DNA of 64,000 nt, from positions 27,049,208 to 27,113,207 of the forward strand of contig CM065690.1 in the NCBI GenBank assembly GCA_017654935.2. Direction: 5' to 3'. This DNA comes from Phymorhynchus buccinoides. Its lineage: Eukaryota > Mollusca > Gastropoda > Neogastropoda > Raphitomidae. Shown here in pieces: positions 9,792 through 62,502 of the stretch. The translations under genes and the position numbers were made by a program. The notes beneath the pieces were generated by a model. The model was given only the letters and a program-made list of their open reading frames with translations. It had not been told where the DNA came from and ran no database searches. The number at the start of each line of letters is the position of its first letter. Position 1 is the stretch's first letter.

Positions 9792-9949
9792 CAGTGGAAC
9801 CTCCCTTATAAGACCTTAAAAAATCATCCAAAATGGTCTTATAAGGGAGGTAATTTTAATACTTACAAAGAAGGGCAAAGTCTCAGAAAAGTAGGTTGCA
9901 TATGGGAGGGAGTCTTATAATGGGAGGTCTTATAAGGGAGGCTCCACTG
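9792..9949. mobile_element. pogo/Tigger-like MITE (CAGTGGAACC family)
   Basis: Begins TACAGTGGAACCTCCCTTAT and ends as its inverted complement (...GGAGGCTCCACTGTA), with TA at both edges as expected for Tc1/mariner-type insertion. No coding capacity. The assignment to pogo/Tigger rests on the TA target and CAGT ends. Confidence 0.75.
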
Positions 9950-10685
9950 TATTTAGGCACAGGGCTCTCAATCAGGTTAAGACATGTATCGCCTTCATGG
10001 GTGTCCTGGGAAATTTCAAAACTCCTGCAAGGCAGGGGTCCAGGGGCTGCCCAGGCCTTGCGCGCAGTGCAGGGACAGCGCCCCTCCTGGGGGTTCCGGG
10101 GGGCAATGCCCCCTGGAAGCTGAAGGGAAACAACAGTTTACAATGTAATTGACAGGCTCTCGTTGCGCTTTCACTTCTGGTTAAATTTCATGACCTCTAT
10201 AACCAGCAAAATGCATCTTCTCAAAATCCGGCGACGCCAGCTCCAGGCAATTAAAAAAAAATCCTGGACAAAAAAATCCTGAACTTCAGGACATTCTGGA
10301 CACAAAATTCCTGAACTTCAGGACATCCTGAAAGCAGGAGCATCCATGCGTCTTATAGTCCGTAAAAAATGGTAATTAACACTAACACACACACTATCAT
10401 ATAAATCGCTTCCATTTTGCATACACACTGACACACACGTATCTTCTGGATAACATGGTAGGTAAAGGGAGTGAAAACACACTGAAAATCCACAGTAGAA
10501 AAGAGGTTCTATTCCAGTGATAGTGATAGTTGAATGAGAATTACCTTATAGTGAAGTGTCTTCTATTATTTTATATTAATTCAGACAAAACAGTTTCTTA
10601 GGTTCTAGTCACCACTCCAAAGCCAGTAATTCATTAAATAACTCAAAATAGGTTGCTGAGCCTATGCCTTTCATAAATATTTCAA

Positions 10686-13440: not shown

Positions 13441-13610
13441 TTAAAGTTACCTATCTTGCTTGTAAAGTCTTAGGAGCTCACAAATACTTCTGGTAAAGCC
13501 TACTTCAGCAAGTGAATCAAGTTATTTCATAATCTATTTCCATATTTAAGCTCCAGAACAATCAACTCTTGGTGCTTGCCTCAGAGAGGGAAGGTGGACA
13601 GCAGCGTTGT

Positions 13611-14820
13611 CTACTATTACTATGGGAAGTGTGATGCCATTGATGATGTCATTAACCCCTTCCCTGCCTGCTCATGTCTCTACTATTACTATGGGAAGTG
13701 TGATGCCATTGATGACGTCATTAACCCCTTCCCTGCCTGCTCATGTGTCTACTATTACTATGGGAAGTGTGATGCCATTGATGATGTCATTAACCCCTTC
13801 CCTGCCTGCTCATGTGTCTACTATTACTATGGGAAGTGTGATGCCATTGATGATGTCATTAACCCCTTCCCTACCTGCTCATGTGTCTACTATTACTATG
13901 GGAAGTGTGATGCCATTGATGTCATTAACCCCTTACCTGCCTGCTCATGTGTCTACTATTACTATGGGAAGTGTGATGCCATTGATGTCATTAACCCCTT
14001 CCCTGCCTGCTCATGTGTCTACTATTACTATGGGAAGTGTGATGCCACTGATGATGTCATTAACCCCTTCCCTGCCTGCTCATGTGTCTACTATTACTAT
14101 GGGAAGTGTGATGCCATTGATGTCATTAACCCCTTCCCTGCCTGCTCATGTGTCTACTATTACTATGGGAAGTGTGATGCCATTGATGACGTCATTAACC
14201 CCTTCCCTGCCTGCTCATGTGTCTACTATTACTATGGGAAGTGTGATGCCATTGATGTCATTAACCCCTTCCCTGCCTGCTCATGTGTCTACTATTACTA
14301 TGGGAAGTGTGATGCCATTGATGACGTCATTAACCCCTTCCCTGCCTGCTCATGTGTCTACTATTACTATGGGAAGTGTGATGCCATTGATGATGTCATT
14401 AACCCCTTCCCTGCCTGCTCATGTGTCTACTATTACTATGGGAAGTGTGATGCCATTGATGATGTCATTAACCCCTTCCCTGCCTGCTCATGTGTCTACT
14501 ATTACTATGGGAAGTGTGATGCCATTGATGACGTCATTAACCCCTTCCCTGCCTGCTCATGTGTCTACTATTACTATGGGAAGTGTGATGCCATTGATGA
14601 TGTCATTAACCCCTTCCCTGCCTGCTCATGTGTCTACTATTACTATGGGAAGTGTGATGCCATTGATGATGTCATTAACCCCTTCCCTGCCTGCTCATGT
14701 GTCTACTATTACTATGGGAAGTGTGATGCCATTGATGACATCATTAACCCCTTCCCTGCCTGCTCATGTGTCTACTATTACTATGGGAAGTGTGATGCCA
14801 TTGACGATGTCAAAACATCA
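13611..14820. repeat. 18-copy minisatellite, 69/66-bp unit
   Basis: Seventeen full units and one partial unit, each starting CTACTATTACTATGGGAAGT and including TTAACCCCTTCCCTGCC. Thirteen full units are 69 bp and four (5th, 6th, 8th, 10th) are 66 bp, lacking one GAT. Units are over 95% identical. Both lengths are multiples of three, so two plus-strand frames stay open for over 410 codons. Four units contain a perfect TGACGTCA (13713, 14187, 14322, 14529). The right flank (14822-14967) matches the body of the TTAA element at 50321, so the array is an expansion of one end of such an element. Confidence 0.95.
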
Positions 14821-24036: not shown

Positions 24037-24562
24037 CTGGCAAACACAGCATGGTTCTTTGCGAAAACGGTTTTCTTGGGAAATTTTTAACTTAACACAA
24101 CACAGTTCTTTGTGAAAACTTGTTTTCTTGGGAAATTTGAACTTAATCAAATACATACAGTGAAGCCAATGTTCAGAGACATCAGCTGACCTAAAAAATC
24201 TAAATAATCATGACACAACCATTTTGCATAGACAGTTGAGCTAAAGCTTATTTGCATATATGGGAAGAAAGAAAAAAATCCAAATCCAATATATTTTCTT
24301 ATCTCAAAAATGAGAGAAATTCATGCCAGTTAACAGAAACACATGACAATACTGAAAAACCCCATCTTATCTGATTAAAATTTAAAAGAATAAGGATCTT
24401 TCCTCGCATACAATTATTAGAATAATAAAGTGGTTTTTTTGCAAAAACAGAATTTCTATAACAAATTATGAGATAAATAGACACAGACACATCAACCCTC
24501 TCTCTCTCTCTCTCTCATGCATGCAGGCACAAACACACACAGGTAACACAAAGCGCCCTCAC

Positions 24563-27500
24563 CTTCCACATCCTGCCCATTCACACATGTACTCCATGAC
24601 CAGAGGCTCGGCAGGGGCGGGAGGGGCAGCACTCTCTGGCTCCGCGTTCTTCCCGCCTTTCTTCTTCTTGGACTTGGGCGGCGGCTTCTCCGCCTTAGGC
24701 TTGGGGGGGGCCTTCTTCTTCTTCTTGTTGACGGCCTCAGACTTGGGCACGGTTCCAGCCAGCACCAGCGGCACCTCGGGATACCCCATGGAGCAGGAAG
24801 GGGACGGGGACGGGGAGGGGGCGGTGGACGAGGGCCTGGGGAAGAAGGTGGAGGGGGCCTGGCCAGTGGAATGCTTGTCGCTGCTGACCGAATCAGCCAG
24901 GGAGGAGGCGAAGCTGTCGCAGCTGACATCGCTGTCGTGAGAGCTGTTGGGGGAGAAGAGGGGCCGCACGACCCCTCCCGCCCCCGTCTCTCCCCCGGCC
25001 TTGCCGCAGTTGATCACCAGGCGACTGTCGGTGGAGTCCAGGCTGGCCTCTTCCATGCTGGTCTGCTTGACCAGCGCCTGTCCTGTCCGGCCTTGCTGGG
25101 CCATCAAGGCCTGAGACGCCTGTATACTGGAGGAGGAGGCCCCGGGACTGCCCAGTCCGTTGACATGCAGCGGTTGATTCTTGGAACAGTCCCCCTCCAT
25201 CTCCTCTTTGCCCATACTCTGGCCCATGTCGATCTTGGGGTCTCCATTTTCCAGGTGATGCGCAACCCCGTTGATCTTGCCCATCTTCTCGGCCATGTTG
25301 TAGAGCAGCTGTTTGGACAGCGGGGCTCCGTCCTTCCAGCCGCTGCCATTGCCTTGCAGCAAGCCATTGGGGATGTGCTCATGGCTCTTCACTCCCTCCA
25401 TGGGTGAGGGAGGCAGCTCGTTGGAGGCTGAATCGGGGGATCCCAGACCTCCGTTCACCACCCCAACCAGCCCATTGCAGTCTTTCTTTGTTGAGACACT
25501 GACGCCGCTGCTGCCGTTGGTGTGTGTATTGTCCATAGCGGGGTGGGGGTGGGGATGGGGGAGAGATTCCGCACAGACCCTGACAGGGTGCAGGGGACTG
25601 CTGCCAGTTGTGTGTACCTCCTGCCCTGCCGACACTGCTGTAGTGCATGACAACGCACTGTGTGATGACGACGATGAAGACAATGAAGAGGAAAATGCTG
25701 GGGCGGGTGCAGGATGAGATACAGTGGTGGATGAAGATGGATGAAGAGGACCTTTACATGGCGGGAAAGCAGCCGTCCACTGGGTTTGACAGGCCGGAAT
25801 TGCGGGAATGGGGGGAATCAGCTTTGAAGACACACTTCTAATGTCACTGTTGGCAGATAGGGACGGAGAGTTGCACACATTGGGTTGACTACAACTACTA
25901 GCAGCACCACTTTGCACTGTCATAGCACGGGAATCCACGATACTGTTGCCACAGTCATTGGTGAAGTTGGATTGTGCGTGCTGCACACCAGACATGGCAG
26001 TGCCTGGTGCCTGCATCAAAGCGGACACAGTAGCTGGGGCTGGGGCTCTGTGACTAGAGAAGGTGGCGCCCACAGAAGGCGACTGATGAGGGTCGATAGC
26101 GCGATACGACGTGGTGGTGGCCTGGACCGACTGCACCAAGGTTGTGGGTAAGGAGGCGCTGGCACATGTGGTCACCTGGGGCTGCTGATAAACAGGCGTC
26201 TGCGTCGCCAATGGCTGCGTGGGTGGGGTCTGGTGGATCCTCACAGGCTGTCCCTGCATCATCCTGGGGATCTGCTGGGGTTGCATAACCACCTGCTGCT
26301 GCCCAGGCCTTATAGGTACCTGGTGTGGGGGGCCGCCTTGCGTCCTAATCAGGTGCATCGTAGCCTGCTGTCCAGTCATTCTCTGCTGTATGTGCCCAAC
26401 ATGGGGATGACCTATCAGCTGCTGACCCTGATGTCCTCGTACCGCATGTTGCGAAGATTGCACTGGCAGACCTTGGATAGTGGGTGACTGGCTGTGAGCA
26501 ATGTGTGACTGTCCCATCAATGACTGAACTGGTTGTGGCACATTCCATTCACCTGTGCTGGGAACTGCACCCTGTTGTGGCCCTGTCGGAAGCTGGGACA
26601 ACAGTGCCACCTGGTTGTTCTGTGACAAATAATTCTGTGGTTGCTGCGCCACCGAAGAGGGTACAACTGGATGCTGCTGTTGTGACAACACCGACGAAGG
26701 AATGACTGAGACACTTGTGTGGTGTTGTGCAGAAAGAGATGAAACAGCCTGTGCCTGGAAAGTTGCCTGCGTCTGATTAACCAACGTCTGATGGTTGTGT
26801 CCCGCATGACCCCCACTAAGTCCAACCTGTCGAGCAGGTAACTGTGATCTGGCCTGCTGCATCTCCACACCAAGCTGAGCAGAATGTGGCTGAAGGACCA
26901 AGGATTGCTCCATGCTGACAGACGCAGGCACAGGAGCTTCCTGAGAGGGGGGTGGGCTCTGACAGGGGGTGTTGGCCTGACGCACCAAGTTCTGGCACAC
27001 CTTTTTGGCCAGCAGACTTTTGATGAATCCAGTTTCAGTGCCCTGGTCAGCCCCGGTCACAGACCCTCTGCCTGCCCCTACCGCCGTTTCTCCTTGCAAG
27101 GCCTGGTGGATGGTGGGGAACTGCTGGCCCGGGGAGGGGGAGGGAGAGCTCACCATGCCCACAGGGCTGGACACAGTGAGGGTGGTGGCAGTGAAGGTGG
27201 GGTTGGTGGTGGGGACCAAGGCGGCGGGCAGCAGAGCGCCCGGCTTGTGGACAGCGGATGATGAGTGCATCAGGATCTGGTCTCCTCCGCACGGCTGCAG
27301 AAAGCTGGAGGCTGCCTGAGGGACGCCTGCCACCTGAAGCTGCTGGGGAGCCAGCGGAGAAGGGTGGGCAGGTGCTGGCTCCTTGGACAGAGGACTGCCT
27401 GGTCCTGGTCCTGGCCCGGAGGGTTGAGCAGGAGGGGGCATGGCGCGTTTCTTTCCTCCCGCCTTGGGGGTCCCGCTTTGCTGACCCTTGCCCCTGGCAG

Positions 27501-27713
27501 AGGGAGGAGCTCCAGCCCCTGTGGCACCTGCATAATGGACAAGGGCCTGGGGTAAGGAAGGCGACTGGGGTGGCTCCATCAGACGCTGGCGCAGGGTGGG
27601 GGTGTAATTGGGTGCTGGGGGAGCTACCGGGGAGACCGAGTTTAGCTGCCAGTTAGCAGGCCCGGGGCCCCGCCAGGGGTGGATGGGCATACTATACGGA
27701 GAGGGTTTACAAA
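24563..27713 (-). CDS. ARID2: ARID2 exon 17, giant exon (Q/S/P-rich region, basic patch, first half of zinc finger 1)
   Basis: This 3,151-nt exon codes residues about 622-1672. It opens VCKPSPYSMPIHPW, has a Gln/His/Pro-rich stretch (about residues 877-1143), a Ser-rich run near residue 1293, and a Lys/Pro-rich basic stretch (about 1613-1643, a likely nuclear-localisation or DNA-contact patch). It ends MCEWAGCG with the first two cysteines (C1665, C1670) of a C2H2 finger. Acceptor TTTTCAG; the in-frame ATG at 27759 lies in the intron and is not a start. Donor AAG^GTGAGG. A single giant exon at this place is also a feature of vertebrate ARID2. The exon is much richer in G+C than its introns. 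Confidence 0.96.
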
Positions 27714-29435
27714 CTGAAAAGAACACAAGCAAACAAAACACCAGTGCAAGGGGAACCACAACATCGAACTAGAGGATTACAACAACACTATGGCATGAAC
27801 ACTACAACAAGTTACAACAAAATGGTGGGTTACAACATCAGCAAAATGCTACAAATAATCCTTGATCATTGTCTACTGCGTGCCAAATTGAACAAGTTGT
27901 CAATTATCAATTAACAAGTCTAACATGCCCATGCGCTTGTTTAGAGGATTAAATGTGAAACTACTGAGTTTCATGTCACTTTAAAAATGTTGCCAATCTG
28001 TCAAAAGTGATAAACATTCTGATTCAACAATAACCACATGCAATAAGCCAAGTGAAGAGCTAAACAACCACTAAAAGATGAACTAGAGCTAGTCATTGTT
28101 TATCCAACCCCTCCTTTTTTCTTTTTCTTTTTATACCTGTAATCTTCATAAACCACATTTAGAAAGTTAAACAAGTTCATGCTTTGCCTCTAATCTAACT
28201 TTATACAACTACCCAGAATTGAACTAAACACTTTGAAAGCAACTGACTTGTCTCAAATATATAAAATGAAAGATTGAGACTCAGGAAAGAAGAGATTAGG
28301 TTCAATAAGTGCGTAGAAAACTAACATGAAGGAAGTACAAAAGGCAGTGCCTTTGCTTGCATTTTGCTGTGTGTGTGTTTTTTCCACTGACAAAATAACA
28401 CAAGTCAAGACAGTATACAACAACCAAACAGGCCTGGAATCCTTCTGCTATCCTAACCCTCATCCTTAATTTAATACTTATCAAATTGGATTTCTACCAT
28501 ACTGAGGATCAAAAATGATAGGACAAACTGTCCTGAGACAAGAAAAAATCAATAGGACAATGTCCTGGCTCTTGCAGAAATCAATAAGACAAAGCGTGCC
28601 AGTGTTAAAAATGTAATCAGACATTTGTCTTGACAGAGGAGAACACAACAGGACATTTTCAAAGTCAATAGGTCAATGTCTTATGACCCGGGCCTCAGGA
28701 CATCACTGGAACACTGAAGCTTAAGTCATAGCTGTACAGTTAGTCGACTTTGATACTGTTACAAGCAGACACCATGGTAAACAAAATTAATATTGGGACA
28801 CATTCTGATTGTGAGCAGAAAAAAAAAAAAAAGAGGTGGAAGAAAGGGTGTCCAAAACGTGTAAAGCACATGAACAGAGCCTAAACAGACACTTGTATCT
28901 GTTGCAGGGTACTACATGCTGTTACACTGATCAAAAATATACTAGTGATCAGGTAAATAAACAAGCATATAAATGAATAAATAAATAAAGTATTATTCTT
29001 ATCTTTTCCCCCCATATTCATACATATGGATTTGAATGCAACATTAAGGATCCTTTGTAAGTTTTATATTTTCTCCTACATGACAAAAATATTTTAAAAA
29101 TTTAAACTACCCCAGCCCCCAAAATGTTTGACTGATTTTTTTTCATTGTCCAGAAAGTTACACACAAAAATGATAGATGACTGAAATAATCATTAAACAG
29201 AGAATATTCAACCATGAAAAACTGGAATGCATGTAAACGGAAATTTGAAATTAAGGCAGCTTTTTGTAAAACAAGCAATTATTTCTTTGTTTTAAAAATA
29301 TAATTATATTAAAATGGAATTGCACCAGTTTTTTAAAAAAAAAATCCCTCATTCTGTAGGACACACAGCAAAAATGGCACAAGTGCTAAAGCAACTTTAT
29401 CACATGGCAAAAACCATGGAAATGTACGTTATTAA

Positions 29436-33770: not shown

Positions 33771-33805
33771 CTGCACAAACCCAATAAACCACCTCAATCT
33801 AAATA

Positions 33806-34132
33806 CAGTGGAACCTCCCTTATAGCACCCCCATTATAAGACTCCCTCCCCATAAGACCTATTTCTCTGAGACATTGCCCTTCTTTGTAAGTATAGTGGA
33901 ACCTGCGTTATAAGACCTCCCATTATAAGACTCCCTCCCATATAAGACCTACTTTTCTGAGACATTGTCCTTTTTGTAAGTATTCAAATTACCTTCCTTA
34001 TAAAACCTTATTTTGGATTTTTGAAGGGAGGTTCCACTGTATTAAAATGACTTCCCTTATACAACTCCCTCCCTTTGATTTAAGACCTCATTTTGGATGA
34101 TTTTTGAAGGTCTTATAAGGGAGGTTCCACTG
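33806..34132. mobile_element. Compound pogo-like MITE cluster (ARID2 intron 14)
   Basis: Several overlapping copies of the CAGTGGAACCTCCC family: starts at 33806 and about 33896, ends at 34039 and 34132. It looks like one copy inserted in another or a local duplication. Confidence 0.7.
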
Positions 34133-37563: not shown

Positions 37564-37886
37564 CAGTGGAACCTCCCTTATAAGACTCCCTCCCACATAA
37601 GACCTACTTCTCTGAGACATTGCCCTTCTTTGTAAGTACAGTGGAACCTCCCTTATAAGACCTTCAAAAATCATCCAAATTGAGGTCTTATATGGGAGGG
37701 GTCTTGTAAGGGAGGTGATTTTAATACTTACAAAGGGTAATGTCTCGGAGAAGTAGGTCTTATATGGGATGGAGTCTTATAATGGGAGGTCTTATAAGGG
37801 AGGTTCCACCGTATTAAAATTACCTGGGCCCTTACAGGACCTCATTTGGAATGATTTTTGAAGGTCTTATAAGGGAGGTTCAACTG
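37564..37886. mobile_element. Compound pogo-like MITE cluster (ARID2 intron 12)
   Basis: Repeats of the CAGTGGAACCTCCC family with an internal start at about 37639 and end CAACTG at 37886. A TTAA element begins three bases further on. Confidence 0.7.
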
Positions 37887-43556: not shown

Positions 43557-43636
43557 CTGCAACACTCTTTGACCTTCAGCATCTCGAACACCCAAATCTC
43601 TTCCCAGGTGCAAAACCTCACTGCCAACCATCTCAT
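43557..43636 (-). CDS. ARID2: ARID2 exon 8 (helical region)
   Basis: Encodes EMVGSEVLHLGRDLGVRDAE and then GQRVLQ. The tail DAEGQRVLQ is a near match to the family's DIEGQRVLQ. Acceptor TGTGCAG, donor CAG^GTAAGC, 80 nt, ends in phase 0. Confidence 0.93.
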
Positions 43637-43671
43637 CTGCACAGCACATCCACAGATAATTTCAAGTGATA

Positions 43672-43830
43672 CAGTGGAACCTCCCTTATAAGACCTCCCA
43701 TTATAAGACTCCCTCCCATATAAGACCTACTTTCTGAAACATTGCCCTTCTTTGTAAGTATTAAAATTACCTCCCTTATAAGACCTCATTTTGGATGATT
43801 TGTGAAGGTCTTATAAGGGAGGTTCCTCTG
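43672..43830. mobile_element. pogo-like MITE (ARID2 intron 7)
   Basis: Complete 159-bp copy, ends CAGTGGAACCTCCC and GGGAGGTTCCTCTG, TA at both edges. It begins only 35 bp upstream of exon 8's acceptor, on the branch-point side. Confidence 0.75.
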
Positions 43831-44075
43831 TAGTACAAAGCACCACATTTCAAATCCTATTCCCCTTTTGAAACGAAATAAAGAAACAATGCAACAAAAT
43901 CTTAAGATTTGTTCCTCATATTTTGTTCTTGTATTGTTTTTTTGTTTACAAGTTGGTTGTTTGTTTTTTAATTTAAAAGAGTCAAAACCACATTAAACAA
44001 AAAAGGTTCAAAACCAAACTGAAAGAAGATGCAAACTATGGATGATGAAAGAGACAACTACTTGCAGAAACCAAC

Positions 44076-44148
44076 CTCTTTTGTAGACACCCACTCTTGT
44101 TTTGATGTTTTCCCGGATCTTTTCATCTTTGACCGTGTCATGCCAAAA
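44076..44148 (-). CDS. ARID2: ARID2 exon 7 (helical region)
   Basis: Encodes FWHDTVKDEKIRENIKTRVG and VYKR (human FWKDIVDDNEVRDLISDR). Acceptor TGTTTCAG. Donor GAG^GTTGGT was chosen over a downstream CAA^GTAGTT because only the former gives phase 1 to match exon 8. Length 73 nt. Confidence 0.88.
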
Positions 44149-45113
44149 CTGAAACAGACAAACACATTATCTATCAACTAAATTTGCTGTGAGTCTTCTA
44201 GTATTTGTGAACATCAATACTAATGTTTAACTCAATTGAGTCACACCGAAAATGGTGGAGTCAGATCACATAATTTTAGGTCATTTTCTAAAGTTCGCCC
44301 CAAATTGAAAGCACACCATACAAAAATGTGACATGCACCGAGTGATAGATAAATTAGTATATTTGCTTAAACTTCTTACTTTGAACCACATATATTTCAC
44401 AATGTCAGTAATCTGATGCAAAAATCATTGATATATACAAACTTATATACAATGTGGCGGTACCATAGCCGATGAGGTTTAACCCGAGGCGTGGTAACCG
44501 CTACACCTATCTATATTGTTAAAAACTCGGGACTTTACTGGTGTTGCACTGCCTCCGGGCATTGCAGCCAGATTGTTCCCACCATTTTTGTATTTACAAG
44601 TGTCCCATATGTGTCTATGACCGAGAGGACGTAAAACATCATTTTCAGCAATCTGATGCAATGCCCTTCATCAGGAAAGCAAACACTTTCTCACTCGACC
44701 ACCTGGCAACTTTGTTATGATCTTAATCTATTATCACAACGCCAGTCAAGTTTTGATAAACTTGGTTTGGTATAGCATAATTTAAGCTATAAACACAAAC
44801 ATTTCTTCCTTTAATGATCAAATAAAGTGAACTATGTGGTCGCAGCCTTACTGGAATTAAGCAAATTTGAAGATGATAGTAGTTCCATTCAAAGAGGTAT
44901 AAAACGAAAATAGGGAGGGACCAGAGCTGGTCTAAGGGAAGCAACTGCAAGGTCTGAAGATTCATAAGAACATAAGAACGGAGTTATTTCCCTCTTACAG
45001 CTTCGCACTGCATAGAAAATCGCCGAAATTGGTTGGAAAAACCTCTCCGACGTGACTCCAAATGATTGGAACAGTGTCGGAAACACGTCTCCAACCTGAC
45101 TCCATTAAGTTAA

Positions 45114-45606
45114 CCCTTTTGCCACCAGCCATTTTTTAGCCAAAAAAATTGGGTCAAACTTATATGGGTAAAGAAAACTTGGTGTCTACAATACTGTGAA
45201 TCCCCTATGACATGTGACAAATTAGGCCTTTCCGTATCTCCCAAAATTAACAACATAAGGTCATTGTGTAACAGATCCTCATTTCATGCCTATCCTTTTA
45301 CAGGCATGAGATTCAGAAATAATGATTTAGGCTGAAAAGGCTGAAACCCCCTGAAACTGAAGCTCTTTTTTTTAATCTAAGCTTTAAAAACAGCATTAGA
45401 AGTAGAATTGATGTTTCCTCCATTTTTATTCACTCATAAGAAATATTTATACACTCAGGGTTTTTTTTATATCTCAAAAATGACCTCCAGGGCCATCAAA
45501 AAGCCTGAAATCAGCCTAAATGCTGAAAAATCTCATGCCTGTTTTAGTGACATGGGTGTTATAAATATCAGTGTGGCGCAGAAATGCGACATCGGCGGCA
45601 AAGGAG
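45114..45606. mobile_element. piggyBac-like MITE split by a CAGGCATGAGATT element (ARID2 intron 6)
   Basis: Starts after TTAA (45110-45113) with CCCTTTTGCCACCAGCC and ends ATCGGCGGCAAAGG. It is interrupted at 45301-45541 by a 241-bp element with inverted ends CAGGCATGAGATT / AATCTCATGCCTG and the direct repeat TTTTA. Confidence 0.7.
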
Positions 45607-45751
45607 CTAAACAGTTTCAGAAACAAGTTTGGTAAATGCTTGTGTTAGACTTTAAATCATTGCTTCAATGAGTGTTGTTTTGTTCTTCGTGTTGACTACA
45701 CATCAGAGTTTTTTCAAATATAATTGACCTAGATTCAGTGTGTTAACTTAC

Positions 45752-45822
45752 CCGTAAAAAGTCTCTTTTTGATTCAGAATTCCTCCAGCTGTGGATCATC
45801 ACGTCTTCCATGGTGCCAAGAC
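45752..45822 (-). CDS. ARID2: ARID2 exon 6 (helical region)
   Basis: Encodes LGTMEDVMIHSWRNSESKRD then FLR, aligned with the family segment [20 protein letters not shown]. Acceptor TTTGCAG, donor CGG^GTAAGT, 71 nt, ends in phase 0 so that FLR joins FWHDTV of exon 7. Confidence 0.92.
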
Positions 45823-46364
45823 CTGCAAACAAGTAAAACAATGATTTCAATACTTCATAAATTCAAAAACGCTACTAGAGATATTTCCACATTCCTACAT
45901 ACTGAATGCTGATGAACTTGATCTATGCAGAAATGTACTTTTCTTTTTTCCAAAAAGAAACCATATATGATGAAAGCCGATATGTTCTCGGATTTGTTAC
46001 TTATTAGCTCTTCTCGCTCGTTTATTTTCCTGTTTCCACCTGTTACTAACATTATGTTTCTTGTTATGGTGACATCTCAGCGCATTGTGTTAGAAGTGTT
46101 CTTAAACCCTCTGAACAGAATTTGGCTCCTCAAGCAAGCAAGGAGTATTGGTAGTTTTGATTTATTCTATAGGAACCTCAAAGGCATGCTTAATAGTAAT
46201 ACATCTAACCTCAGTTACAGTCTCATCCACAAGACTTGTCATGTTGTCATGGACTATGATGGAGTTACACATATAAACTTGGGTTATTATAAACTTCAGG
46301 CAAAAAAATCCAATCACTGGATCACAAAGACACAATTTACTGATCTACTGAGGTTTATCCAGTA

Positions 46365-46504
46365 CAATGGAACCTCCCTATTAAGACTCACTCCCACTTA
46401 AGACCTACTTCTTAGAGACATTGCCCCTTTTTCGTAAGTATTAAAATTACCTCCCTTTCACAACTCCCTCCCACTTAACGCCTTATTTAGGATGATTTTT
46501 CAAG
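46365..46504. mobile_element. Truncated pogo-like MITE (ARID2 intron 5)
   Basis: Begins CAATGGAACCTCCCTATTAA and follows the family consensus to about 46504, where it gives way to a TTAACTCTTCTAG-type repeat end. Confidence 0.6.
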
Positions 46505-46793
46505 CTCTTAACTCTTCTAGTACAAAATTCATAAATAGTTCCACCTTCTGGAAGTTCTGTACTTGAAACTTTCCCTAATCTGCCACTCCCTGTGACTCTG
46601 CCTTTTCCCTTTGCTTTCTATTATCTACCGATACTATCTTTCTGACTTATTGGCCCATTCTCCTGCCAAACAGTGCCTTTTTCATAAAAAAAATACTCCA
46701 AATAATTGTTCTCCTTTGAGCTCCTCCGAAATCCAGTATGCAGCGGGGAGACCAGTGAAAACTGAAAACCGGACTCATACGTACCTTACCCAT

Positions 46794-46963
46794 TACAATG
46801 GAACCTCCCTTCAAAAATCATCCAAAATGAGGTCTTGTAAGGGAGGGTCTTAATCTTATAAGGAGGTAATTTTAATGCTTGCAAAGAAGGGCAATGTCTC
46901 AGAGAAGTAGGTCTTATACGGGAGGGAGTCTTATATTGGGAGGTCTGATAAGCAAGGTTCCAC
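46794..46963. mobile_element. pogo-like MITE in duplicated unit A
   Basis: Begins CAATGGAACCTCCC and ends AAGCAAGGTTCCACTG. It is the most diverged part between the two duplicated units. It lies 80 bp downstream of the exon 5A donor. Confidence 0.7.
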
Positions 46964-47044
46964 TGTATAGCCATATGGCCTGGGAACGCAAAAGAAGAAG
47001 AAGAAATATATCTGTAAAGACACGGAGCAAAGAGGCACAGTTAC

Positions 47045-47263
47045 CTTCCTCAAAGATGCCGACATTGGCCAGCAGGAGAGTGAGCAGGTGCAGGGACTTG
47101 TGGAGCTTGAGCACATAGCGGCCTTCGTTGGACAGCAGCAGGCACACGTTCACCGCAAAGTCCACCTCGTTGGGCAGCCCGCTGCGCAGCGCCATCTCCA
47201 GTTTGTCGTAGTCGCTGAACTGGGCAAGGTCCCCAGACAGGTTGCCAGAGTCTCGCTGATGGT
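47045..47263 (-). CDS. ARID2: ARID2 exon 5, downstream copy (5A)
   Basis: Second, identical copy of exon 5 with the same splice signals. Because the exon is 73 codons long and phase 1-1, tandem inclusion would give an intact frame with a repeated block of 73 residues (1,920-residue protein), while use of one copy gives the normal 1,847. No other known ARID2 carries this block twice, to my knowledge, so the single-copy form is expected to be the ancestral product. Confidence 0.88.
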
Positions 47264-47873
47264 CTGGAGAACCAACAAAGTAGGCAATAGTTGGTGCAAT
47301 ATGTTGCATGGCAATAGGTAATTAATACAATGGGCTACCAAACAAGAAAAAAAACAAATTAGCTTGCAGCCTTCTTAGGTGCTGATGACTTGCTTTGAAG
47401 TTGAACAGTCTTTTTGAACACTGGCAAAATTATGGTGGAATTTTAACCAAAAGACACAAATCTTATGCAGCCTCTGGATTCTATTAAATGTAAAAACACA
47501 AATGTAAGATGCACACAGCCTTTTCACTTAGTTTTCACTTTTCCGTCTCATTTCAATGGTAACTCAAATTACATGTCTGGCAAAGGACAATACTCAATAG
47601 AATGTTTTCTAGAAACAACCAACACATTTTATGACAGTGACTTAAGATTTATTTAACCTTTTTCATATCAAAGTCTTTAATATTGTGTCGTTTGAATTTC
47701 ATTTGGTTAGTTGTTCACAAACATGGGTCTTGAAAGCTTCAATAGTAAATCATACAAAAACAGACACAGTGGAAAATCTTTTCATTCCACAGCTAACCAA
47801 TAGGATCTACCATTCTGATGTTCAGTTCCTACATGTTATGATGTACAATGAGACTCATACGTACCTTACCCAT

Positions 47874-48038
47874 TACAATGGAACCTCCCTTCAAAAATCA
47901 TCCAAATGAGGTCTTATAAGGGAGGGGTCTTATACGGGAGGTAATTTTAATGCTTGCAAAGAAGGGCAATGTCTCAGAGAAGTAGGTCTTATATGGGAGG
48001 GAGTCTTATATTGGGAGGTCTTATAAGCAAGGTTCCAC
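47874..48038. mobile_element. pogo-like MITE in duplicated unit B
   Basis: Counterpart of the copy at 46794 with a few small differences. It shows the MITE was present before the duplication. Confidence 0.7.
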
Positions 48039-48119
48039 TGTATAGCCATATGGCCTGGGAACGCAAAAGAAGAAGAAGAAATATATCTGTAAAGACACGG
48101 AGCAAAGAGGCACAGTTAC

Positions 48120-48338
48120 CTTCCTCAAAGATGCCGACATTGGCCAGCAGGAGAGTGAGCAGGTGCAGGGACTTGTGGAGCTTGAGCACATAGCGGCCTT
48201 CGTTGGACAGCAGCAGGCACACGTTCACCGCAAAGTCCACCTCGTTGGGCAGCCCGCTGCGCAGCGCCATCTCCAGTTTGTCGTAGTCGCTGAACTGGGC
48301 AAGGTCCCCAGACAGGTTGCCAGAGTCTCGCTGATGGT
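48120..48338 (-). CDS. ARID2: ARID2 exon 5, upstream copy (5B)
   Basis: Encodes DHQRDSGNLSGDLAQFSDYD through SGLPNEVDFAVNVCLLLSNE to LLTLLLANVGIFEE, the first part of the ARID2 helical repeat region. The sequence SGLPNEVDFA is almost invariant in the family. The exon is 219 nt, phase 1 at both ends, with acceptor TTCTCCAG and donor GAAG^GTAACT. It is identical base for base to the copy at 47045-47263, offset by 1,075 bp. It contains an LxxLL-type motif (LLTLL). This copy is first in transcription order. Whether it is spliced alone, with the other copy, or not at all cannot be read from DNA. Confidence 0.88.
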
Positions 48339-48926
48339 CTGGAGAACCAACAAAGTAGGCAATAGTTGGTGCAATATGTTGCATGGCACTAGGTAATTAA
48401 TACAATGGGCTACCAAACAAGAAAAAAAACAAATTAGCTTGCAGCCTTCTTAGGTGCTGATGACTTGCTTTGAAGTTGAACAGTCTTTTTGAACACTGGC
48501 AAAATTATGGTGGAATTTTAACCAAAAGACACAAATCTTATGCAGCCTCTGGATTCTATTAAATGTAAAAACATAAATGTAAGATGCACACAGCCTTTTC
48601 ACTTAGTTTTCACTTTTCCGTCTCATTTCAATGGTAACTCAAATTACATGTCTGGCAAAGGACAATACTCAATAGAATGTTTTCTAGAAACAACCAACAC
48701 ATTTTATGACAGTGACTTAAGATTTATTTAACCTTTTTCATATCAAAGTCTTTAATATTGTGTCGTTTGAATTTCATTTGGTTAGTTGTTCACAAACATG
48801 GGTCTTGAAAGCTTCAATAGTAAATCATACAAAAACAGACACAGTGGAAAATCTTTTCATTCCACAGCTAACCAATAGGATCTACCATTCTGATGTTCAG
48901 TTCCTACATGTTATGATGTACAATGA

Positions 48927-49124
48927 GCGACACCCATTTCACCGCCAGATGGCAATCAAACCAGTAGGGGCTTAGCGCGTGATATTCTTAGTTAGGGGTA
49001 GAGTGAAAGACAGAGGGGGAGATGAGTCCCCCTCTCTCTCTCTCTCTCTCTCTACCCCCAACAAAGAATATCACGCGCTAAGCCATTACTGGTTTGATTG
49101 CCATCTGGCGGTGAAATGGGCGTC
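48927..49124. mobile_element. Foldback (TIR) element at the edge of the exon duplication
   Basis: Arms of roughly 80 bp: left CGACACCCATTTCACCGCC with TGGCAATCAAACCAGTA, and right GGTTTGATTGCCA with GGCGGTGAAATGGGCGTCC. The centre has a (CT)n run. It is a palindromic MITE of unknown superfamily and marks the right border of the duplication. Confidence 0.8.
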
Positions 49125-49160
49125 CTAAGTTGACCATTAGGATTTAGGTGGAAGTCATCG

Positions 49161-49211
<51 letters not shown>

Positions 49212-49273
49212 ACAGTATATTGTGTCATCTGAAACACACTGATCATTACAAAATAATGTCGATGGAAGGGTAT

Positions 49274-49306
<33 letters not shown>

Positions 49307-49396
49307 GGATCAAGGGGACCGGAAGGAAGGGAGGGGGATAGAAGCATTAAAAGAGAATCCATGAATATATAGCAACATGTATTTCCCATGACTGAC

Positions 49397-49548
49397 CAGG
49401 CACTTTGTGCTGGTTGTAGTTGTAGGTCAGAGGAATGGACTCCACAGGAAGACAGATCTTCTTCCTGGCAGGCCCCTCATCAGGTTCGTCATTACAGTTG
49501 TCTGGGTCCAGCCCCAAAAAGTGAACTTTCTCGTAAATGTTCAGATAT
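49397..49548 (-). CDS. ARID2: ARID2 exon 4 (end of ARID domain, linker)
   Basis: Encodes the closing ARID helix YLNIYEKVHFLG, then an acidic linker (DPDNCNDEPDEG), a basic ARKK patch, and the conserved IPLTYNYNQHKV segment (human IPSSYNYQQHSV). Acceptor GTTGCAG. Donor CCTG^GTCAGT was chosen because phase 1 joins to AC-CAT of exon 5 and recreates the conserved Asp after HKVP. Length 152 nt. Confidence 0.93.
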
Positions 49549-49721
49549 CTGCAACCATGTTTGTTTACAAGTTTTTTTAAAGTTACAGGGATCAATCTTG
49601 TCACTGGACATCATAAAACATTTGACTAGTTCGAAGAAAATATAATACTTTTATTTTTTTATATAGGTCATTTTCTTAAAAATAATAAGTCATAATGTAA
49701 ATAAACAAGCGTGAATTCGCA

Positions 49722-61479: not shown

Positions 61480-62262
61480 GAAGGAAATTTCGGTTTTCAA
61501 GGTCACACTTCAAGGTCAAGGTCAGCATGGTGATAATTTATGCTCGGATGTTTTCTTCTCTAGGGTATACAGTACCACACACAATCTGAAGCACTTCTGT
61601 CAAGTACCAATGTGGAAAATACGGCTTAAAACCCAATGTGTAGACCCCTACCACTTTCAAGGCCTACGGATCGCCCGGACCGTGACCTTGACCTTGATCG
61701 GTATGCCACCATCAGAACGGGCATAAGCCAAAGTACCTTCATGCCAAATTTGAAGACTCTAACACTAACGGTGTGGGAGTTATGGCCCCTGAAAGATTTT
61801 CGGTTTTCAAGGTCGTACGCCAAGGTCAAGGTCACGACGGCAATATGGTTTGCGCGGATGCCTTCCTCTCATGGTGACACACCAGCACACACAATTTGAC
61901 GTGATTCTGTCAACCCGTTCGAAAGATATCCTTGGGACAGACAGAAGGAGAAAAAAATGACCCTCCGATTTTCAGGCTCCAGCGATCTTTTTGACCTTGA
62001 CCTTGACCTTGATCGGTATGCCATCATCAGAACGGGCATAAGCCAAACCACCTTCATACCAAGTTTCAACATCCTATGTTGATCGGTGCCCGAGATATGG
62101 CTAAAAATAGATTTTCGGTTTTCAAGGTCGTACGTCAAGGTCAAGGTCACGACGGCAAAATGGTTTGCGCCGATCTCTTCCTATTAAGGAGGCACACCTT
62201 CACACAAAATTTGACGCGATTCGGTCAAGCGGTTCGGGAAATATCCTTGGGACAGACAGAAA
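61480..62262. repeat. GACCTTGACC repeat, imperfect tandem units of about 310 bp
   Basis: CTTGATCGGTATGCCA, CATCAGAACGGGCATAAGCC, TTTTCGGTTTTCAAGGTCGT and AAGGTCAAGGTCACGACGGC recur in order at about 61690-61860 and 62007-62160; an older part-copy starts at 61485. Then 62283-62330 and 62343-62392 repeat ACAAACCAGCCCATCGCAA plus a GTCCGT...GGTGACGGAC hairpin. Similar sequences are common in molluscan introns and intergenic DNA. Confidence 0.7.
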
Positions 62263-62502
62263 AGGAAAAAAAAAAAAAAAAAAATACAAACCAGCCCATC
62301 GCAATAGTCCGTCTTGGTGACGGACTAACAAACAAACAAACAAAAATACAAACCAGCCCATCGCAAAGTCCGTTACCTTCGGTGACGGACAAAAACAACG
62401 CTACACCCAAATGTGAAAGGAAACACGTTGTACCTACTCAGCTTAACTTGCACCCACCGCTTTCTACACTAAAAGAAACTTGGACAAACACGTAGATTCG
62501 CG

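Follow-up and report, generated by a model that had tools for sequence, protein, structure and literature searches.

A probable recent tandem duplication of ARID2 exon 5

Does a gastropod gene for a core chromatin remodeller subunit carry one of its coding exons twice, and which message would such a gene make? The question is raised by a 64,000-nt stretch of the Phymorhynchus buccinoides genome (assembly GCA_017654935.2, contig CM065690.1, positions 27,049,208 to 27,113,207 of the forward strand; hereafter the window), in which about 1.08 kb of ARID2 including exon 5 stands twice in tandem. Comparison of the window with itself by BLAST confirmed that the duplication is present in the sequence: 46772-47852 was aligned with 47852-48927 over 1082 columns with 98.7% identity, 7 mismatches and 5 gap openings (E 0.0). 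Chance similarity of the units was ruled out by the length and identity of the match. An earlier note on this DNA had placed the units correctly to within 1 nt, giving no strand. The two units are as follows.

46772..47851, tandem unit 1, the transcript-downstream unit, 98.7% identical to unit 2 (BLAST, MAFFT)
47852..48927, tandem unit 2, the transcript-upstream unit, directly adjoining unit 1 (BLAST, MAFFT)

The host gene, on the minus strand, is an ARID2 orthologue by its sequence, in agreement with the name given to it before. The joined translation of exons 1-6 matched the ARID domain (PF01388, E 1.4e-22); two choices were tried for the end of exon 1, one of which kept the frame. A tblastn search with an approximate human ARID2 sequence as query gave collinear main matches at 58.7-36.2 kb (N-terminal part) and 24.0-20.1 kb (C-terminal part) together with weak scattered ones. 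Exon 5 alone matched residues 140-211 of chain Q, human ARID2, in PBAF structure 7vdv (E 5e-19). The Foldseek search with a structure model of exon 5 had human PBAF ARID2 as its top match (7y8r_L, probability 1.00, E 0.023) and no match at E 0.001 or below. By its ARID domain and the collinear tblastn matches, the gene looks intact. A minus-strand open frame of 1069 codons (24562-27768) lies between the tblastn matches and was taken as the long ARID2 exon; its frame had one 41% relative (P0002) among 7987 candidates scored.

The exons that concern the duplication are listed here, all on the minus strand.

49397..49548, minus strand, ARID2 exon 4 (splice-site inspection, tblastn)
48120..48338, minus strand, ARID2 exon 5a, first in the transcript, 219 nt, intact AG/GT
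47045..47263, minus strand, ARID2 exon 5b, second in the transcript, 219 nt, intact AG/GT, identical to 5a, matching human ARID2 140-211
45752..45822, minus strand, ARID2 exon 6 (exon join translation)

The MAFFT alignment showed 0 differences between the 219-nt copies. Both are bounded by ...ttctccag before and gtaact after the exon, so that the intact second exon with acceptor and donor described earlier is indeed there. Within its unit each copy is preceded by ~588 nt and followed by ~270 nt of intron, and an 856-nt intron separates 5a from 5b. The flanks are identical over 50 nt before and 76 nt after the exon. Exon 4 ends in ...CCTG|gtcagt, exon 5 in ...GAAG|gtaact, and exon 6 begins at cag|GTCTTGG; the codons at the joins are GAC for 4|5, GAC for 5|5 and GGT for 5|6. 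On translation, the 4-5-6 and 4-5-5-6 messages were both stop-free through exon 6, and the phase neutrality claimed before thus holds for one-copy and two-copy joins alike. In the assembled sequence one gene thus holds a pair of homologous exons side by side, each with intact splice sites, as expected of a tandem exon duplication. The limits of exon 5 look old in the sequences compared, because the similarity of its relatives begins and mostly ends near them: 46 proteins were found as separate open frames at E <=10, 20 of which were aligned with exon 5 and 15 inspected, and in the inspected sequences reaching far enough the similarity sets in right at the D of DHQRD/DYLRQ or close to it, and in most cases stops past the FEE/FDD block.

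How recent the duplication would be was judged from the differences between the units. MAFFT alignment gave 18 differing columns, one of which is an end overhang. Most of the others (15/17) sit within 46824-46947, inside a miniature inverted-repeat transposable element (MITE) that is present in both units; the remaining two are 47314 (A/C) and 47499 (C/T).

46795..46968, plus strand, MITE A1, in unit 1, ends TACARTGGAACC.../...GGTTCCACTGTA (family alignments, ends by eye)
47875..48043, plus strand, MITE A2, the insertion of A1 duplicated in unit 2 (family alignments, ends by eye)

The ~900 nt of the units that lie outside the MITE show 2 substitutions (~0.2%), which supports the recency proposed earlier, provided that the duplication is real. 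Substitution rates were assumed to be 1-5 per 10^9 sites per year; with the MITE cluster left aside, the duplication would then be about 0.2-1.1 million years old. Selection was rejected as an explanation of the exon identity, which needs none, since only ~0.5 difference is expected in 219 nt at the observed divergence. Inside the MITE (46824-46947 against 47904-48022) ~5 difference events per 175 nt were counted by eye, and on these counts the density of differences is uneven between the MITE and the rest of the unit (Fisher p 0.0017). Four of the five events appear derived in unit 1, as judged by eye against family copies. Gene conversion was considered as one candidate cause of the cluster.

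The edges of the duplication may bear on its origin. A palindromic element lies at the right edge.

48929..49124, no strand assigned, palindromic element B, directly beside the right breakpoint, DNA hairpin -92.8 kcal/mol (self-inverted BLAST match)

The right edge (48927) is 1-2 nt from this 196-bp element, whose DNA fold (z -20.2) was matched in energy by 0/200 shuffles. Self-comparison gave five such palindromes in the window, and the edge of a random 1076-nt interval fell within 2 nt of any of their ten ends with a probability of 0.0016 (200,000 draws), in a test chosen post hoc, after the arrangement had been seen. Where the units meet they share 1 nt of microhomology. Together with the palindrome edge at the breakpoint, this makes an error of replication or repair beside the hairpin-forming element a plausible origin; palindromes are reviewed as fragile sites in PMC7999016. 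Unequal recombination between flanking repeats was not indicated, as the left breakpoint (46772) is outside the MITE tip (~46795) and the junction shares 1 nt. A search of viral_contigs with one pattern gave 0 exact matches to element B. A 32-G homopolymer beside a GA microsatellite stands at 49274-49305, 150 nt from the element.

If the genome is as assembled, ~1.08 kb of ARID2 was recently duplicated in tandem in the germline, the change being either fixed or heterozygous in the animal sequenced, and the message would be altered in a simple way. Because the splice sites are equal and the 856-nt intron sets no steric limit, double inclusion would be the default outcome: both copies would be recognised alike and the main new message would carry exon 5 twice. 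Any message with a single copy would look the same as the ancestral mRNA. Since the copies are identical, the one-copy mRNA would be the same from either exon, and the variable to measure would be one against two copies. In cells with a duplication of dystrophin exon 2, the sizes of reverse transcription PCR products imply doubled transcripts (PMC3982197), and tandem duplicated exons of higher identity are reported to show more split reads (PMC9013439).

The doubled message would lengthen ARID2 by 73 amino acids. The structure model of exon 5, made from a 21-row alignment, has ~17 non-helical residues followed by helices at 18-28, 31-46, 51-54 and 58-68. The ARM region of human ARID2 begins at residue 157, and its seven repeats nucleate the Base module of PBAF (PMC9741621). 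Residue 18 of the exon, the start of the first predicted helix, corresponds to human residue 157, the published ARM start, and for this reason exon 5 probably encodes the linker between ARID and ARM together with the first ARM-type module (ARM1). The order in the doubled protein would then be ARID, linker, extra ARM1-like module, linker and the original ARM1-7, which would stay uninterrupted because the extra copy is on the ARID side and the second copy continues into ARM2. One more module would thus separate the ARID domain from the scaffold, and we infer that it could be tolerated. The LLTLL stretch in exon 5 had been read as an LxxLL-type motif. A docking motif of this kind was not indicated and was set aside, as the stretch lies in the predicted helix 58-68 and the human residues are IITLL.

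Several observations weigh against a real duplication with this outcome, and some of them concern the assembly. In a false duplication, the assembler would have joined the two alleles, or copies left by an under-collapsed read error, in tandem, and the animal would have one exon 5. Two substitutions in ~900 nt together with ~5 MITE events are an ordinary allelic pattern, and the two substitutions outside the MITE also fit two haplotypes. The caution of the earlier note about assembly error was well placed. GA repeats and the G32 tract lie ~240-380 nt to the right of the duplication; such repeats and long homopolymers can disturb assembly. PMC9516828 documents such false exon gains and names half depth, one-copy k-mers and gaps between copies among the characteristics of false duplications from heterozygosity. 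Against this stands the absence of a gap between the units, the whole window consisting of A, C, G and T only with no N. The unit is also short relative to long reads. A breakpoint at a palindrome edge, a feature noticed post hoc, is not predicted by an allele mis-join. Beyond the 3' end of ARID2, a 69-bp tandem array (13608-14812, 17.6 copies, 96% match) is open in two plus-strand frames and has a period divisible by three; that its 17.6 copies are resolved in the window suggests a long-read assembly. On balance the false duplication is unlikely, if still to be reckoned with, and the duplication is probably real, whether fixed or heterozygous.

The remaining adverse points concern splicing and the protein. 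The exon contexts are not fully equal, as 47314/48389 differs 51 nt before the acceptor, being the nearest upstream difference (the next is 47499/48574), and several MITE differences fall downstream of the exons. Exclusive choice between duplicated exons exists, though it is rare (PMC9741552). The confidence of the exon 5 model is middling (mean pLDDT, the predicted local distance difference test, 70.6, with the first 12 residues <50), and the model is of a single exon. The full account, in which a recent real duplication has both exons spliced in and adds an ARM1-like module, is in our judgement about evenly balanced between being right and being wrong.

The MITEs raise a further explanation, in which the RNA structure would control skipping. 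Two of the inverted copies of the family downstream in the gene are listed here.

46372..46504, minus strand, inverted MITE A3, in the intron past exon 5b, outside the duplication (family alignments)
43669..43820, minus strand, inverted MITE A4, in the gene, downstream of A3, duplex -231.4 kcal/mol with A1 and -235.8 kcal/mol with A2

Of an inverted MITE pair in the introns, one arm was copied with the unit, and the other (A3) lies outside. A1 and A2 would compete for a partner in the downstream intron, A3 (or A4); pairing of A2 would loop out exon 5b and give the single-copy message, and pairing of A1 would give the doubled one. One arm within the duplicated unit and the other outside is the geometry from which, in the proposal of Ivanov and Pervouchine, competing structures arise (PMC6071210). 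The duplex energies of A1:A3 (-154.9 kcal/mol) and A2:A3 (-165.2 kcal/mol) were stronger than those of 100 mononucleotide shuffles of A2 against A3 (mean -61, standard deviation 6.2) and of two same-orientation family copies (-74.8 to -90.9). The fold of 46300-48400 had 108 A2:A3 pairs and no A1:A3 pairs, the ensemble of the same segment gave 105.8 expected pairs for A2:A3 against 0.2 for A1:A3, and A1:A3 made 108 pairs when A2 was masked. The partner, however, shifts with the folded segment and the span limit: A2 pairs with A4 and A1 with A3 in the fold of 43600-49600, and A1:A3 formed at a limit of 500 or 1000 and A2:A3 at 1600 or 2500. Both A1 and A2 also pair more strongly with A4 and with the copy at 33885-34050 (-200.9 kcal/mol with A1 and -203.2 kcal/mol with A2) than with A3, and folds of lowest energy carry little weight for a pre-mRNA of kilobase length. 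Competition of MITE arms in the ARID2 pre-mRNA is thus a possibility at most, and we regard skipping under its control as improbable. More improbable again is the bolder form, a newborn exon duplication, its exons not yet diverged, in which the duplicated MITE arm and an inverted MITE older than the duplication already form a transposon-built docker-selector switch setting the ratio of doubled to single-copy ARID2 message.

The weakest explanation, a regulated and selected mutually exclusive exon pair heading to two isoforms, is very improbable: such events are called rare but important in PMC9741552, but the exons are identical and give the same protein either way, with no divergence for selection, and neither steric or splice-type incompatibility nor loss of frame was found (856-nt intron, both copies GT-AG, frame kept), so that the mutually exclusive splicing suggested in the earlier note has no direct support from copies with the same splice sites, close flanks and identical single-copy mRNAs.

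The MITE family itself (~150-175 bp, ends TACAGTGGAACC) occurs in both orientations at 9802-9952, 33803-34110, 37571-37876, 43669-43820 and 46372-46504, and several copies sit in ARID2 introns. One pattern from element A, the MITE, had 0 exact matches in viral_contigs. Elsewhere in the window, a 315-bp unit stands in two tandem copies (1.9, 82% match) at 61678-62274, and no Rfam family matched the window at its gathering score.

If the duplication of exon 5 is real, an exon duplication would be seen at its earliest stage, in a gene whose product is a core part of a chromatin remodeller. The splicing of the exons could be followed before they diverge, and it could be learned how one more ARM-type module affects the assembly of PBAF. 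The locus would also offer a natural setting in which to ask whether inverted mobile elements govern exon choice from the outset, and, if the MITE switch were true, a direct test of competing RNA structures as a by-product of duplication. A literature search on ARID2 and exon duplication gave nothing on such an event, as judged by titles and abstract openings, and one on mutually exclusive exon duplications in molluscs gave none on ARID2, as judged by titles.

Tandem exon duplication is already well known, occurring in ~10% of animal genes according to a 2002 figure cited in PMC9013439, and what the ARID2 case adds, its youth and the mobile elements at its edges, is moderate. Like other tandem exon duplications of animal genes, it has an adjacent copy of an exon with flanking intron, here with the phase kept. 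Unlike the old ones, exemplified by the >90% of annotated human events with bony fish orthologues (PMC9741552), the ARID2 copies are identical. Accounts differ on the fate of such exons, which become exclusive frequently according to PMC6071210 and rarely according to PMC9741552. As in the docker-selector exons of Dscam, 14-3-3 zeta and Mhc (PMC6071210), two duplicated intronic elements are complementary to one downstream element; unlike them, the ARID2 elements are MITE copies that would form a putative switch, and the choice of pairing is not robust. The heterotype false duplications of PMC9516828 likewise have near-identical copies with few differences, whereas the ARID2 units have no gap between them. 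Among the single-exon duplications of dystrophin (PMC3982197), in which an exon is likewise repeated in tandem, that of DMD exon 2 shifts the frame, whereas the duplication of ARID2 exon 5 keeps it.
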